Source: a virus. Taken from it: DNA of 27,339 nt. The notes beneath the pieces are model-generated. The model worked only from the letters and a program-made list of their open reading frames with translations. It was not told where the DNA came from and searched no databases. Location: positions 1 through 27,339 of the IMG/VR virus record IMGVR_UViG_3300044816_000034; one strand, written 5' to 3'. Numbering within the stretch: the first letter of the stretch is position 1; each line of letters begins with the position of its first letter. Shown piece after piece: positions 2,763 through 21,600 of this stretch. Position numbers and translations under genes: made by a program.

Positions 2763-4184
2763 TTAGTTCGCTGCGTCAACGACGTTCGGGCAGTCCCGGT
2801 ACCTGTACTTCGGGACCGTCGCCGTGTCGTACCTCAGGAATGTGTTCGCCGCCGCGATGGTCCCGATGCCACCCGTGGGGTAGTTGTAAAACCCGGTTTG
2901 GTCGAGCACGATCCGCCCAATCGTCGTGGACGTTTGCGCCCCCAAAACCTGGATGAACCCACCCAATGTGGAGTTAACGATCCGCAACGAAGGCAACGAC
3001 CCCGAATGAACCCTGACGATGGACGACACCAACGGCCCGAACGCCAGGAAACTGTTCGCCGTGTCCGCACAGTTGTCGATCGTGATGTGCGCACCGTTGC
3101 CATACCACGCCACATCGAAGAACTTACAATTCTCGTGCCTCAACTCCAAGCGGATACCGTTGAACGTGGCCTGCATCGTGGACGCATTATGCCCGGCCGT
3201 GACATCCCCAGTTTTGAAGAACACACCACCAACCTTCGCCGTTGCGTCAGCGATCCCAAGAATCCACGACCCACCCCTACAGTTCAGGAACCCACCCCGG
3301 TTGAACACCAAGCAGTCACCGGACAGGTACTCAAACTTGCATTCATCGAACACGTAGTTCACCATCTGGTCCTGCTGACCGTTGGCCTGCCAGTTGGTGT
3401 ACCCAACCTGGAACAGTGCACCAGCGAACGTGGTGGCGTTGGTGGTGTTGATGCGTTTCAGGAAAAACTCACTGTTCAGGTTCGTTTGCTGGTCACCGTC
3501 GCACAACACACCCCAACGCCACGCCCCGGCGAACTCGATTTCCTCGAACCGGATGTCCTGGTTGTTGCCGGACCCGTACTCGGGGTAGGTGAATGTGGTG
3601 TCACCGTTGTCGCGGGACCAGAAGAAAAACCCGGTGTTCGTGCCGTTCGCGGACCGCAACCGGATGTTTGACACCCTTAGCCGGTTCACCCGGTTACCCA
3701 TCACGAACGGGCTGATACTGCCGGGGTGTTTCCCAGCGGCGGCGGTACCCGCGTAGTCGAAGAAAATCTCACTGACCCGTTTACCGTCGCCCATCACCCT
3801 GAACGAACCGATGATCGCCTGAGCCGCACCCGCAGCGTTCGGGGAATCAACGATGCACCCCGGTTGCGTCACCCGGTAAATCCCAGCCGGGAAATACAGC
3901 GTCTTGGTGCAGTTCCCACCATTAACCGTCGACCCCAGCACCGCGTTCCGGGCGTTGATGATCGCCGTCGTGTCATCCGTCGCGCCGTTCCCCGTCGCGC
4001 CGTAGTCCTTCACGTTCACCAACGACCCGAACGGTGACGCCGTAGGACCCGGCGACAACAACGCCACCGCCGACTTCAACGTCTCAATGTCAGCGTTCAT
4101 GCCGGTGATGTCATTCTTCAGCGGAACATCCCACCCCGTCTGATTCCCCTGCGGGACAGACGGAAACGACAACGATGCAACCAT
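2763..4184 (-). CDS. Tailspike/tail fibre with pectate-lyase-like beta-helix (473 aa)
   Basis: Residues 56-76 (VNVKDYGATGNGATDD and following) are the standard entrance motif of the pectate-lyase-like right-handed beta-helix found in phage tailspikes and depolymerases. Residues 1-50 are a short head region with a helix (DITGMNADIETLKSAV) that probably joins the spike to the baseplate. The rest, to about residue 440, has the short repeating turns and Asn/Gly/Val/Ile pattern of a solenoid. This family commonly binds or cuts capsular or cell-wall polysaccharide. The catalytic acids cannot be assigned without a structure. The ATG at 4184 follows GGGAG about 11 nt upstream, just before the stop of the 48-residue gene. 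Calling it a depolymerase is inference. Confidence 0.75.
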   Translation of the reverse strand: MVASLSFPSVPQGNQTGWDVPLKNDITGMNADIETLKSAVALLSPGPTASPFGSLVNVKDYGATGNGATDDTTAIINARNAVLGSTVNGGNCTKTLYFPAGIYRVTQPGCIVDSPNAAGAAQAIIGSFRVMGDGKRVSEIFFDYAGTAAAGKHPGSISPFVMGNRVNRLRVSNIRLRSANGTNTGFFFWSRDNGDTTFTYPEYGSGNNQDIRFEEIEFAGAWRWGVLCDGDQQTNLNSEFFLKRINTTNATTFAGALFQVGYTNWQANGQQDQMVNYVFDECKFEYLSGDCLVFNRGGFLNCRGGSWILGIADATAKVGGVFFKTGDVTAGHNASTMQATFNGIRLELRHENCKFFDVAWYGNGAHITIDNCADTANSFLAFGPLVSSIVRVHSGSLPSLRIVNSTLGGFIQVLGAQTSTTIGRIVLDQTGFYNYPTGGIGTIAAANTFLRYDTATVPKYRYRDCPNVVDAAN

Positions 4185-16261: not shown

Positions 16262-16744
16262 TTATCCAGGTTGGCCGTCGCCCGGGGATGTATCAGCATC
16301 CGCCGGGCTCTTTACTGTCTCTGATTCTACCGTCATACGGGCGATGTTCTCATCCCACAACCGTTGAAACTCACTGACGGGGACCGCTGTGCCTAACGGT
16401 TCCTGCGTTTTCTGACCTGGCCGTTTGATGGGTTCCGGCCGGTCGTTTTTCTTCGTGTCGGAGTTCAACCACGCGATGAGCGCGAGGTAGTCCACAACAC
16501 CAGCCAACAGGTGATCTGTGACAGCCCACGCGACTTCTTCACCGAACATTTCCCGTACGACCGCACTGGTCCGCGGGGAGTGTTTGATCATCGCCAGCAG
16601 GGCGCGCCATGTCACCACGGCTGGTACGTCAGCGAGTGTGTACCGTTTGTCTAGGAGATCGGCCTCGATAGCTTCCCACTGTTCGCGGGGTAGGGCTACG
16701 AGGCTTTGTATTCCCCCAGTTGGACTCCACTGTGTTCGCCCCAT
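16262..16744 (-). CDS. Tail assembly chaperone, T part (made as a -1 frameshift extension)
   Basis: This open frame overlaps the end of the first chaperone gene in the -1 frame. It is the usual T part of the G-T pair, located just before the tape measure except for the inserted HNH gene. A frameshift at 16711-16717 joins 104 residues of G to 150 residues of this frame, giving a fusion of 254 residues that ends at 16262. The sequence has a helical core (REQWEAIEADLLDKRYTLADV, TWRALLAMIKHSPRTSAVV, VDYLALIAWLNSDTKKN). The chaperones coat the tape measure during tail assembly. It probably has no independent start of its own; the ATG at 16744 has no good ribosome site. Confidence 0.85.
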   Translation of the reverse strand: MGRTQWSPTGGIQSLVALPREQWEAIEADLLDKRYTLADVPAVVTWRALLAMIKHSPRTSAVVREMFGEEVAWAVTDHLLAGVVDYLALIAWLNSDTKKNDRPEPIKRPGQKTQEPLGTAVPVSEFQRLWDENIARMTVESETVKSPADADTSPGDGQPG

Positions 16745-17025
16745 GCTTCGAGGAACTCACCGAACTCCACGATGTCGAGTTGCTTGATGAGGGCCAACGA
16801 GTCGGGGTCGTCGCCGGCGGCGAGTTGCACGAACAGCAGTGATTCGCGGGCGTTTTTCACCCGCTGGTTTTCGATGGACTCGATCTCCATTATCTGCCAC
16901 GCGTTCGGGGCCTTCGCCTTGCTGAGTGACGGCACGGTGATCTCACCAACCGACGACTCATACACGAAGTCATCATCGGACCCGGGGCCACGCTTCGCGA
17001 CAGCAGCCTTCTTCGGCGCGGCCAT
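16696..17025 (-). CDS. Tail assembly chaperone, G part (109 aa)
   Basis: The ATG at 17025 overlaps the stop of the 58-residue gene (TGATG). The protein starts with a Lys/Ala/Gly-rich tail, then VPSLSKAKAPNAWQIMEIESI and a helical core that includes FVQLAAGDDPDSLALI, LDIVEFGEFLEAWGEH. Its place between major tail protein and tape measure and the -1 overlap with the next frame are diagnostic of the G chaperone of long-tailed phages. Most ribosomes should stop at 16696 and a minority should shift. Confidence 0.88.
   Translation of the reverse strand: MAAPKKAAVAKRGPGSDDDFVYESSVGEITVPSLSKAKAPNAWQIMEIESIENQRVKNARESLLFVQLAAGDDPDSLALIKQLDIVEFGEFLEAWGEHSGVQLGEYKAS
16711..16717 (-). promoter_or_regulatory. 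-1 ribosomal frameshift site GGGGGAA
   Basis: In minus-strand RNA codons 103-105 of G are CTG GGG GAA. The five G bases allow the glycine tRNA to re-pair one base back, after which reading continues in the T frame (GGA ATA CAA). The site lies 15 nt before the G stop codon. I saw no strong downstream structure. Confidence 0.7.
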
Positions 17026-17201
17026 CAGACGAGCCTCTCGATACTGACCACGACACGCGTGATGGCACGCTTCGGGTGGGGCGGCTCAGTGTCATCTTCC
17101 GTGTAGATGTACAGCGAGTTGCCGGCATCGTCCGGGTGGCACAGGTACCCGCCGGTCGAGTCCGGGCGGGCATCCGGGAATTCGATTCGCATTTTGGACA
17201 T
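17025..17201 (-). CDS. Small protein sharing the C-terminal motif of the major tail protein (58 aa)
   Basis: The ATG at 17201 opens a frame that stops exactly on the chaperone start (TGATG). Residues 16-37 (STGGYLCHPDDAGNS, then LYIYTEDD) match the end of the major tail protein (TGECYPDASGNSIYLYTSDG). Shared positions are C, P, D, G, N, S, Y, Y, T and D, with a similar DNA sequence as well. No good ribosome site is close to the ATG. Just upstream is the pseudoknot-like structure. It may be a duplicated tail-protein tip made as a separate small protein. Function unknown; the homology is visible by eye. Confidence 0.75.
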   Translation of the reverse strand: MSKMRIEFPDARPDSTGGYLCHPDDAGNSLYIYTEDDTEPPHPKRAITRVVVSIERLV

Positions 17202-17206
17202 GATTT

Positions 17207-17287
17207 CGCAGGAGGGCCTTTCGTTGGTGTGCAGGAGGTTGACCCGTCCGGCGCGGGCCCTCCTGCGTGAGATTGCACGCCGGACGG
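17207..17287 (-). promoter_or_regulatory. Interleaved inverted repeats, H-type pseudoknot-like, after the major tail gene
   Basis: CGCAGGAGGGCC (17207-17218) is the exact inverse of 17256-17267. CCGTCCGGCG (17244-17253) is the exact inverse of 17278-17287. The arms interleave, so both stems can form only as a pseudoknot. In minus-strand RNA stem 1 is 10 bp, loop 1 is 10 nt, the two stems are 2 nt apart, stem 2 is 12 bp and the last loop is 25 nt. The structure starts 9 nt after the TAA of the major tail gene. Stem 2 pairs an AGGAGG with a CCUCCU. Confidence 0.6.
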
Positions 17288-17296
17288 TCTAGTTGG

Positions 17297-17881
17297 TTAC
17301 GGGTTGTTCACGCCGTCGCTGGTGTAGAGGTAAATGCTGTTGCCGGACGCATCGGGGTAGCACTCACCAGTCAAGTCCCACTTCACCGGCGCGGTCTTCG
17401 AGAACGTGATATCCGCCGGCTGCGTGATCTGCATGTTCGGGCACACAATCCGCATGGACCGCACCCCGTCGAGAATGTTCGCAATCACCGACACTGCGGG
17501 GTTCTCTACCGCATTGAACTTCACCGCCTGCAACGTCGGAGCCCCGGCAGTGTTCGTGGTGGTGACGTTCGACGCCCCATACACGAGGTTCAGGACGGGG
17601 GTGTTCGTTTCCAGGCACGTGAACTTCACGTCACCCGTGAACTTCGTCAGGAACGTCCGGACGAGGTCCCCACCCCAGTCCCGGATCTGCACCCAATCAC
17701 GCTTCTGGGAGATCACGAACCCGGACTCATCAATGTACCCGAGGTCCTTGAACGCCACGTTCGGTGCTGTTGCTACTGCGGTTGGGAGAGCGGTACCAAG
17801 AGGGGCGACCAGAATAGCGCCCGACGTGGCCCGGTCCGGATTGCCAACAAAAATGTTGGCGGTCTTCGGAGTGCCTGCCAT
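17297..17881 (-). CDS. Major tail protein (194 aa)
   Basis: It lies directly before the chaperone pair and has the usual tail-tube features: a flexible N-terminus (MAGTPKTANIFVGNPDRATSGAI), alternating beta strands (YIDESGFVISQKRDWVQIRDWGG, with the conserved-looking DWGGDLVRTF) and length near 200. The ATG has AAGGGG 7 nt upstream. The last 24 residues (TGECYPDASGNS and following) recur in the 58-residue protein downstream. The gene ends AAC CCG TAA, a proline codon before the stop with a strong predicted RNA structure 9 nt later. It polymerises into the tail tube. Confidence 0.85.
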   Translation of the reverse strand: MAGTPKTANIFVGNPDRATSGAILVAPLGTALPTAVATAPNVAFKDLGYIDESGFVISQKRDWVQIRDWGGDLVRTFLTKFTGDVKFTCLETNTPVLNLVYGASNVTTTNTAGAPTLQAVKFNAVENPAVSVIANILDGVRSMRIVCPNMQITQPADITFSKTAPVKWDLTGECYPDASGNSIYLYTSDGVNNP

Positions 17882-17941
17882 TGGTTTTCCCCTTCGGGTT
17901 CTGCGCAGGAGGGCCCAGAAGGTTTTGATGCCGGTAAAACG

Positions 17942-20334: not shown

Positions 20335-21600
20335 TTAGAACGCGGCAGTTCCTTTTGTATAGACAGTGAACGCAGACGGACTGCCTACGACGAATCCGTA
20401 GTAAGCCTCGATAAGTAGCAATGTTAAATTTTCCTGGAACGCCGAGTGGAACGTTGTTCCATCGAAATACGTCGCTTCGGTGGATACCTTGAATGTGATG
20501 TCCATTCCGACGCCGTATGCCGCCTGTGACCAGTCACCGGCAACTGCGCGGATGGTGGAGTCAACGCCACCCTGACCGGACGCGGTGACTGCAACCTTCG
20601 GGTTGGTGCCACCGGTGAGGCCAGCACCGTTGGTGGTGAACGGCGCGGACACCGGTGCCACGTTCGAGGTGATCGCGGGGAACGTGACGGTGTACGGGCC
20701 GCCGGCGGAACCGGAGACGGTGACGCCCGCGAACACCCCGCCCCATGCCTGGATGTTGGTCTGGAGCGTCGAGGCAGCAGCATTGAACGCTGCGGTGTAC
20801 GAGTTGCCACCGGCCGCGATCAGGAACGTCCCGCCGGTCGGTGCGCCGGTGATGGTGATGGTCTGGAGGGCGTCACCCGCACGCCAGTACCGGCCGCCGA
20901 CGCCTTTGTTGAACACTGCTGGCCAGCCGAGGAGGTCCCGGGTGAGGTTCCCGAGTTCATCGTTGGTGCTGGTGGAGTGGTCGTTGGAGAGGAGCGGCCG
21001 ACCAACGGTGTCGGTGGCGAGCATCGCGTCGACCTGCAGCCGCGGGTCAGCAGCCCAACCGGTCATGTCGTAGTTAGCGTCCACGATCTTCCCGACGCCG
21101 GTGACGAGGTCGTTGTAGATGCCGCCGGTGGCCTGGCTGGCGGTGCCGAGGGCGACGGTGTTGGGGGTCAGTGCGATGTAGTCACCGAACGGGCCGGCCC
21201 CACCGGTGCGGAGTGACTTCCCTGTGATCGCGGCGTAGTCGAACGCGCGGGACAGCGCGGTCGGGAGGTCCTGCTTCAGTTGCTCGTACAGCCCACCGGG
21301 GTTGGTCTGAACAACCTCATCGGACACGGGGACGAGGAGCGCGAGCTTCTTCCCGGACATGACCTTGACGCCCACACCGACCTGGCTGGCGGGCTTGATG
21401 CCGCCTTCTCCGACCCAGTCCGCGATGGGGATGTCCATCGGGACGGGGATGGCGGTGTTCGCTGCGACGGACAGCGGAACGCGACGCGCCAGGGACATGA
21501 CGGCGGACTGTTCCACCGCCTTAGCGAAGATGGGACCGGTGATGGTCGGGGGGAGAAGCGTGGCGGAAGTGTTCGCCAACGCAGACGGGTTGATAGCCAT
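20335..21600 (-). CDS. Major capsid protein, HK97 fold, with inserted beta domain (421 aa)
   Basis: The N-terminal half (FAKAVEQSAVMSLARRVPLS, DWVGEGGIKPASQVGVGVKVMSGKKLALLVPVSDE, LTRDLLGWPAVFNKGVGG) and the C-terminus (GDWSQAAYGVGMDITFKVS, ENLTLLLIEAYYGFVVGSPSAF) are typical of actinophage HK97-fold capsid proteins. Between them, residues 244-345 form an extra module starting LQTITITGAPTGGTF and containing VTVSGSAGGPYTVTFP and GLTGGTNPKVAVT. That pattern matches a repeat domain of actinobacterial and phage surface proteins. The module explains why the protein is about 100 residues longer than close relatives. The ATG has GAGG 6 nt upstream. An HNH gene follows. Confidence 0.92.
   Translation of the reverse strand: MAINPSALANTSATLLPPTITGPIFAKAVEQSAVMSLARRVPLSVAANTAIPVPMDIPIADWVGEGGIKPASQVGVGVKVMSGKKLALLVPVSDEVVQTNPGGLYEQLKQDLPTALSRAFDYAAITGKSLRTGGAGPFGDYIALTPNTVALGTASQATGGIYNDLVTGVGKIVDANYDMTGWAADPRLQVDAMLATDTVGRPLLSNDHSTSTNDELGNLTRDLLGWPAVFNKGVGGRYWRAGDALQTITITGAPTGGTFLIAAGGNSYTAAFNAAASTLQTNIQAWGGVFAGVTVSGSAGGPYTVTFPAITSNVAPVSAPFTTNGAGLTGGTNPKVAVTASGQGGVDSTIRAVAGDWSQAAYGVGMDITFKVSTEATYFDGTTFHSAFQENLTLLLIEAYYGFVVGSPSAFTVYTKGTAAF

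Follow-up and report, generated by a model that had tools for sequence, protein, structure and literature searches.

What is the function of the two interleaved inverted repeats that follow the major tail protein (MTP) gene of this virus? The window, meaning the whole 27,339-base stretch of an IMG/VR virus record that was analysed, carries its late genes on the minus strand, with profile matches to a tail terminator, the MTP, a two-part tail assembly chaperone (TAC), a tape measure protein, capsid, portal and terminase. The major capsid protein (20335-21600, minus strand) has an extra C-terminal domain (residues ~245-354) that matches tail protein and tail sheath PHROGs and is probably an Ig-like decoration domain. 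A preliminary description of the window had reported a perfect 12 bp inverted repeat at 17207-17218/17256-17267 interleaved with a perfect 10 bp inverted repeat at 17244-17253/17278-17287, and had read them as an H-type pseudoknot on the minus-strand RNA that stimulates recoding at the MTP stop codon or else controls the 58-residue gene downstream. A repeat search recovered both repeats at exactly these positions.

Within the window this is the only interleaved pair of perfect stems of at least 10 bp and at least 12 bp (17207-17287), and none of 200 dinucleotide-preserving shuffles of the window contained such a pair. Shorter combinations are expected by chance, with 0.87 interleaved 8+8 bp pairs per dinucleotide-preserving shuffle. 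Another interleaved inverted-repeat pair, of 8 and 10 bp at 3411-3522, is no more than chance would give, about one being expected.

On RNA, one U-G and one G-C pair lengthen the 10-bp stem, S1, to 12 pairs (17287-17276 with 17255-17244). The 2-nt junction remarked on earlier is present between the perfect repeats and is consumed once S1 reaches its 12 pairs. Moreover, two features had been overlooked: the 12-nt arm S2a has a second, nearer partner, P (CCTCCTGC, 17238-17231), and a further copy of its complement, the third, lies at site M in the MTP leader (17915-17904 for 12 nt). Read along the minus strand, the order is MTP TAA (17299-17297), 9 nt, S1a, S2a, S1b, P, D and an ATG at 17201, with the 3' end of D lying 5 nt ahead of this ATG. 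The features concerned are as follows.

17904 to 17917, minus strand: M site, TGGGCCCTCCTGCG, in the MTP leader; a 14-nt complement of the S1 loop region.
17297 to 17881, minus strand: major tail protein (MTP), 194 aa; PHROG 117 / Pfam Phage_TTP_17.
17276 to 17287, minus strand: S1a, 5' arm of hairpin S1; 10 Watson-Crick pairs plus U-G and G-C, 9 nt past the MTP stop.
17256 to 17267, minus strand: S2a, CGCAGGAGGGCC, within the S1 loop; antisense to P, D and M.
17244 to 17255, minus strand: S1b, 3' arm of S1, from the repeat search.
17231 to 17238, minus strand: P, proximal partner of S2a, CCTCCTGC; 8 bp.
17207 to 17218, minus strand: D, distal partner of S2a, GGCCCTCCTGCG; 12 bp, overlapping GAAAGG (17222-17217).
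17025 to 17201, minus strand: 58-codon ORF between the element and TAC, resembling the MTP C-terminal end.
16696 to 17025, minus strand: first ORF (G-like) of the tail assembly chaperone, 109 aa, from a profile match.
16262 to 16744, minus strand: second ORF (T-like) of the tail assembly chaperone, in a different frame, from a profile match.

The relatives came from three sources: IMG/VR, a single scan of genome contigs, and named phages. A nucleotide search of phages for relatives of the window gave nothing useful, and a search of viral contigs for exact window DNA patterns returned one true relative; L005 and L006, also returned, were rejected as coding-sequence coincidences. S1 was present in nearly all of the 52 loci, with 12-17 bp and z of about -4 to -10 against shuffles, and where ~80-125 nt lie between MTP and TAC, nearly all loci of actinobacteriophage type carry it. 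The S1 loop is complementary to P, and in most such loci to D as well, and in most loci no more than about 20 nt separate S1a from the preceding stop codon. Phages that infect Mycobacterium, Gordonia, Arthrobacter, Microbacterium and Curtobacterium were found to carry the element. One of them is the laboratory phage D29, where S1 has 12 bp (z -6.0), P is GCCCGCCA and D is AAGGUUCGCCA, adjoining AUG. The element was not found in low-GC (Firmicute-type) relatives, in which TAC lies directly 3' of MTP, or in Keelan and Success, and Bipper has no MTP-TAC gap.

Of four phages added later, Cheetobro and prophiGD43A-1, like D29, yielded the element under preset search settings, the D of prophiGD43A-1 being weak (6 bp, p 0.076). 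It was recovered from Gretchen only with the D zone widened to 38 nt and from Floral only with a loop limit of 40 nt; because these limits were altered for them, after the first result had been seen, both provide weaker confirmation. In CherryonLim and Vine the hairpin selection took the S2a:P hairpin in place of S1, so that their P and D values are understated.

Because the locus sequences differ completely, pairing was assessed by an alignment-free test in which cognate partners were permuted (cognate versus non-cognate pairing, 38-41 dissimilar loci, 20,000 permutations). A MAFFT alignment of the Arthrobacter group was set aside because arm lengths differ and S1 was misaligned. Mean duplex energies were -19.0 kcal/mol for a locus's own S2a:P against -11.9 kcal/mol when permuted, -18.4 against -11.4 kcal/mol for S2a:D, and -34.8 against -12.9 kcal/mol for the S1 arms, with 0 of 20,000 permutations reaching the observed value in each case. 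The S1 comparison is partly circular, as S1 is by definition the best hairpin per region, and its fairer measure is the z-scores against shuffles in which hairpins were chosen likewise; P and D played no part in the choice. Ranked against other 25-nt windows of their own locus, D had a median position of ~1.1% and P of ~1.8%. The topology of an H-type pseudoknot on the minus-strand RNA finds strong support in these data: its two interleaved stems both show compensatory change in relatives, rather than one of them being conserved alone. G-U pairs account for 9% of S1 pairs, and beside the SD, D repeatedly shows a C-to-U change relative to P, whereby one G-C pair becomes G-U (Andrew, Daob, Eesa, BENtherdunthat, Cozz, Zapner, L034, L037 and L061). 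Both the G-U pairs of S1 and the U in D where P has C fit recognition of RNA rather than DNA.

The relatives also indicate to which gene the element belongs. In the window the MTP gene ends in CCG TAA, 9 nt ahead of S1, and past this stop the +1 frame is open for 68 codons and the zero frame for 107, much as the preliminary description had it. Across the 52 loci, however, there is no conserved shift site or open extended frame: a proline codon directly precedes the MTP stop at four, and the median open length past the stop is 32 codons for readthrough and 30.5 codons for the +1 frame, closure coming at random lengths. In L004, whose MTP is 72% identical, the protein ends in SA followed by TGA, with 0 and 12 open codons in the readthrough and +1 frames. 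In L004 and L016, HNH genes part the element from MTP by 533 and 537 nt; it still adjoins the TAC start. The intervening gene of L004 is of the NUMOD4-HNH type; both stems are unchanged there, and D has the same sequence as in the window and ends 2 nt ahead of the TAC ATG. The HNH stop lies 5-6 nt ahead of S1a in both genomes and looks like the ancestral MTP stop region. Given these insertions and the frame data of the 52 loci, the element is tied to the TAC start rather than to the MTP stop, and recoding as its conserved function is refuted, since neither the proline nor the open frames are kept and the structure is not fixed to the MTP stop. The two HNH-type homing endonuclease ORFs (L004 1533-2021; L016 3045-3596) share one insertion site at the 3' end of the MTP gene.

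In relatives the target of the element is the start region of the first TAC ORF. The 58-codon ORF of the window duplicates part of the C-terminal end of MTP (51% identity where the two align) and is missing from L004, the closest relative. Comparison with the relatives indicates that it is an insertion between the element and TAC, and that the original target is TAC. The stop of the ORF shares bases with the TAC start (TGATGG), so that translation of TAC may now proceed by coupling to the ORF. As to the suggestion that the structure controls this downstream gene, control in the downstream direction fits, while the gene originally addressed is a different one.

In the relatives compared, the pairing overlaps the SD/start region of TAC and tracks the TAC start through evolution. 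D overlaps the SD in mycobacteriophages such as Guanica15 (CACCAGGAGG), the SD-AUG spacer in Arthrobacter and Gordonia types and the AUG itself in L012 (GGGCUCCGCAUG); in D29 it abuts the start (AAGGUUCGCCA followed by UG). This pairing is not universal, since D is weak though P is kept in Bernstein, L023, L024, L029 and L030. The S2a:D linker usually measures 20-40 nt, which is ample for both stems together. The linker from S1b to P is often only 3-8 nt, with an S1 of 12-16 bp, and S1 and S2a:P may therefore be alternatives that do not coexist. In CherryonLim (L071 1831-1932) and Vine (L078 1831-1928), with a linker of 3 nt and an S2a:P hairpin that matches S1 in stability, the two look mutually exclusive. 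Taken together, these comparisons of sequence lead us to regard the structure as real and conserved, with the TAC start as its target, and its architecture (pairing of RNA, covariation, position and the tie to the TAC start) as established.

We favour, with moderate confidence, the reading that the element is a pseudoknot with an internal decoy that occludes the ribosome-binding site and limits TAC translation relative to MTP. It would be a cis-acting RNA regulator of the MTP-TAC intergenic region, in which S2a, presented by the S1 loop, is complementary both to D, the ribosome-binding site of TAC, and to P, a copy of that site further upstream. With S1 closed, S2a:D pairing would form a pseudoknot over the SD and/or the SD-to-AUG spacer and block TAC initiation, while S2a:P pairing would leave D free and relieve the TAC start. 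That D represses, that P releases and that the ribosome is the trigger is our inference: since S1a usually begins within ~20 nt of the upstream stop, ribosomes ending MTP may open S1 and favour S2a:P, which would couple TAC to MTP translation. Should S1 and S2a:P be alternatives, then S1a, S2a, S1b, P and D would make up an attenuator-like set. The spacing between stop and S1 could also be a by-product of compact genomes and of the places where HNH genes insert. Tail assembly needs far more tube protein than chaperone, both from one late transcript, and the likely purpose of the element would be to keep the chaperone, required in catalytic amounts, low relative to the very abundant tail-tube protein.

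More tentatively, the S1 loop may be a hub that chooses between M, P and D and so sets the ratio of tail-tube protein to chaperone. M, a 10-16 nt complement of the S1 loop within the MTP leader, occurs in at least nine phages (the window, L004, L012, Gaia, BENtherdunthat, Zapner, prophiGD43A-1, Gretchen and Floral). In the predicted folds of L004, L012, Gaia, BENtherdunthat and Zapner, M is placed in the 5' arm or the loop of a hairpin to which the MTP SD also belongs; the predicted fold around M in the window differs from these. Pairing with M would open the hairpin hiding the MTP SD in several phages (activation), P would act as a neutral decoy, and pairing with D at the TAC start would repress. 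If this were true, one loop would raise MTP and lower TAC, acting in cis over ~600 nt or in trans between transcripts.

Several other functions are conceivable for the element. It seems unlikely that S1 is an intrinsic (perhaps partial) transcription terminator past the highly expressed MTP gene, with the loop complementarity secondary: at least five U occur in the 8 nt past S1 at 13 of the 52 loci, mostly Arthrobacter-type, but the U tract is missing at the other 39, a search of the window for terminator-like sites (a GC-rich stem followed by a U tract) found none, and termination leaves the covarying P and D at the TAC start unexplained. We give rather little credence to the opposite sign of control, in which the pseudoknot would activate TAC translation, S2a pairing near the SD and presenting the start site as in IncI-type repZ/timP mRNAs. 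The known precedents combine hairpin loop pairing near the SD with coupling to upstream translation; here, however, D usually lies over the SD-AUG spacer or the AUG itself, a stretch that the 30S channel accepts only as a single strand. An element for processing by RNase III or another RNase, or for stability, which would separate or protect the MTP message, with the TAC pairing a consequence of processing-site duplication, is improbable. The long GC-rich S1 (12-17 bp) directly past the MTP stop and M:S2a complements of up to 16 nt would suit it, but it predicts neither that P and D share a sequence tracking the loop nor the fixed position of D at the SD/AUG. It is very improbable that the repeats are protein binding sites at the DNA level, for while one motif (M, P, D and S2a) recurs in inverted and direct repeats, it varies among phages yet the pairing is kept, and G-U pairs are common. 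Hardly credible at all is a stimulator of +1 shift or readthrough at the MTP stop, which the 9-nt spacing past CCG TAA and the open frames of the window would suit but which the scarcity of proline codons, the random frame closure and the HNH genes parting MTP from the element contradict.

Rfam gave no match above the gathering score for the window or 17 relatives; the lack of a conserved primary sequence is part of the reason why RNA-family searches miss the element. No description of it was found in the open-access papers searched, subscription papers lying outside this search, so that an earlier description is possible; nor did the papers searched yield a dosage device at the MTP-TAC junction beyond the known G/GT frameshift. 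In actinobacterial viruses the pseudoknot with its decoy is apparently a widespread, undescribed RNA switch for tail-protein dosage. It would answer the dosage problem in a way open to direct test, and it would define a new RNA family in which covariation is unusually clear.

With respect to known systems, a stem-loop to the right of the Corndog major tail gene in Cluster O mycobacteriophages has the same gene position and a 12-bp stem; the relevant passages describe it just as a likely terminator and do not mention complementarity between loop and TAC start (PMC4351075). The SAS/ESAS of Cluster K mycobacteriophages is a conserved 13-bp sequence found at 13-19 genes per genome (PMC11373665). 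Like the element it consists of short repeats directly ahead of start codons, but its sequence is conserved, whereas the motif of the element changes from phage to phage and pairs with a loop. Autogenous pseudoknots at ribosome-binding sites control ribosomal protein S15 rpsO and T4 gene 32. These share with the element an H-type pseudoknot in an mRNA leader at the ribosome-binding site of the regulated gene, but they bind their own protein product, while the element is not known to have a protein partner. The rpsO cases include the mycobacterial one (PMC8470358). The element differs from the S15 and gene 32 pseudoknots in sitting between two genes and in having a loop with a decoy, P, and sometimes M. 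In IncI/IncB plasmid repZ/repA a pseudoknot activates translation and an antisense RNA competes with it. There too a hairpin loop pairs near the SD of the downstream gene and upstream translation is involved; the upstream partner of these plasmids, however, is a leader ORF, whereas the element has a structural gene upstream and pairs over the SD/AUG.
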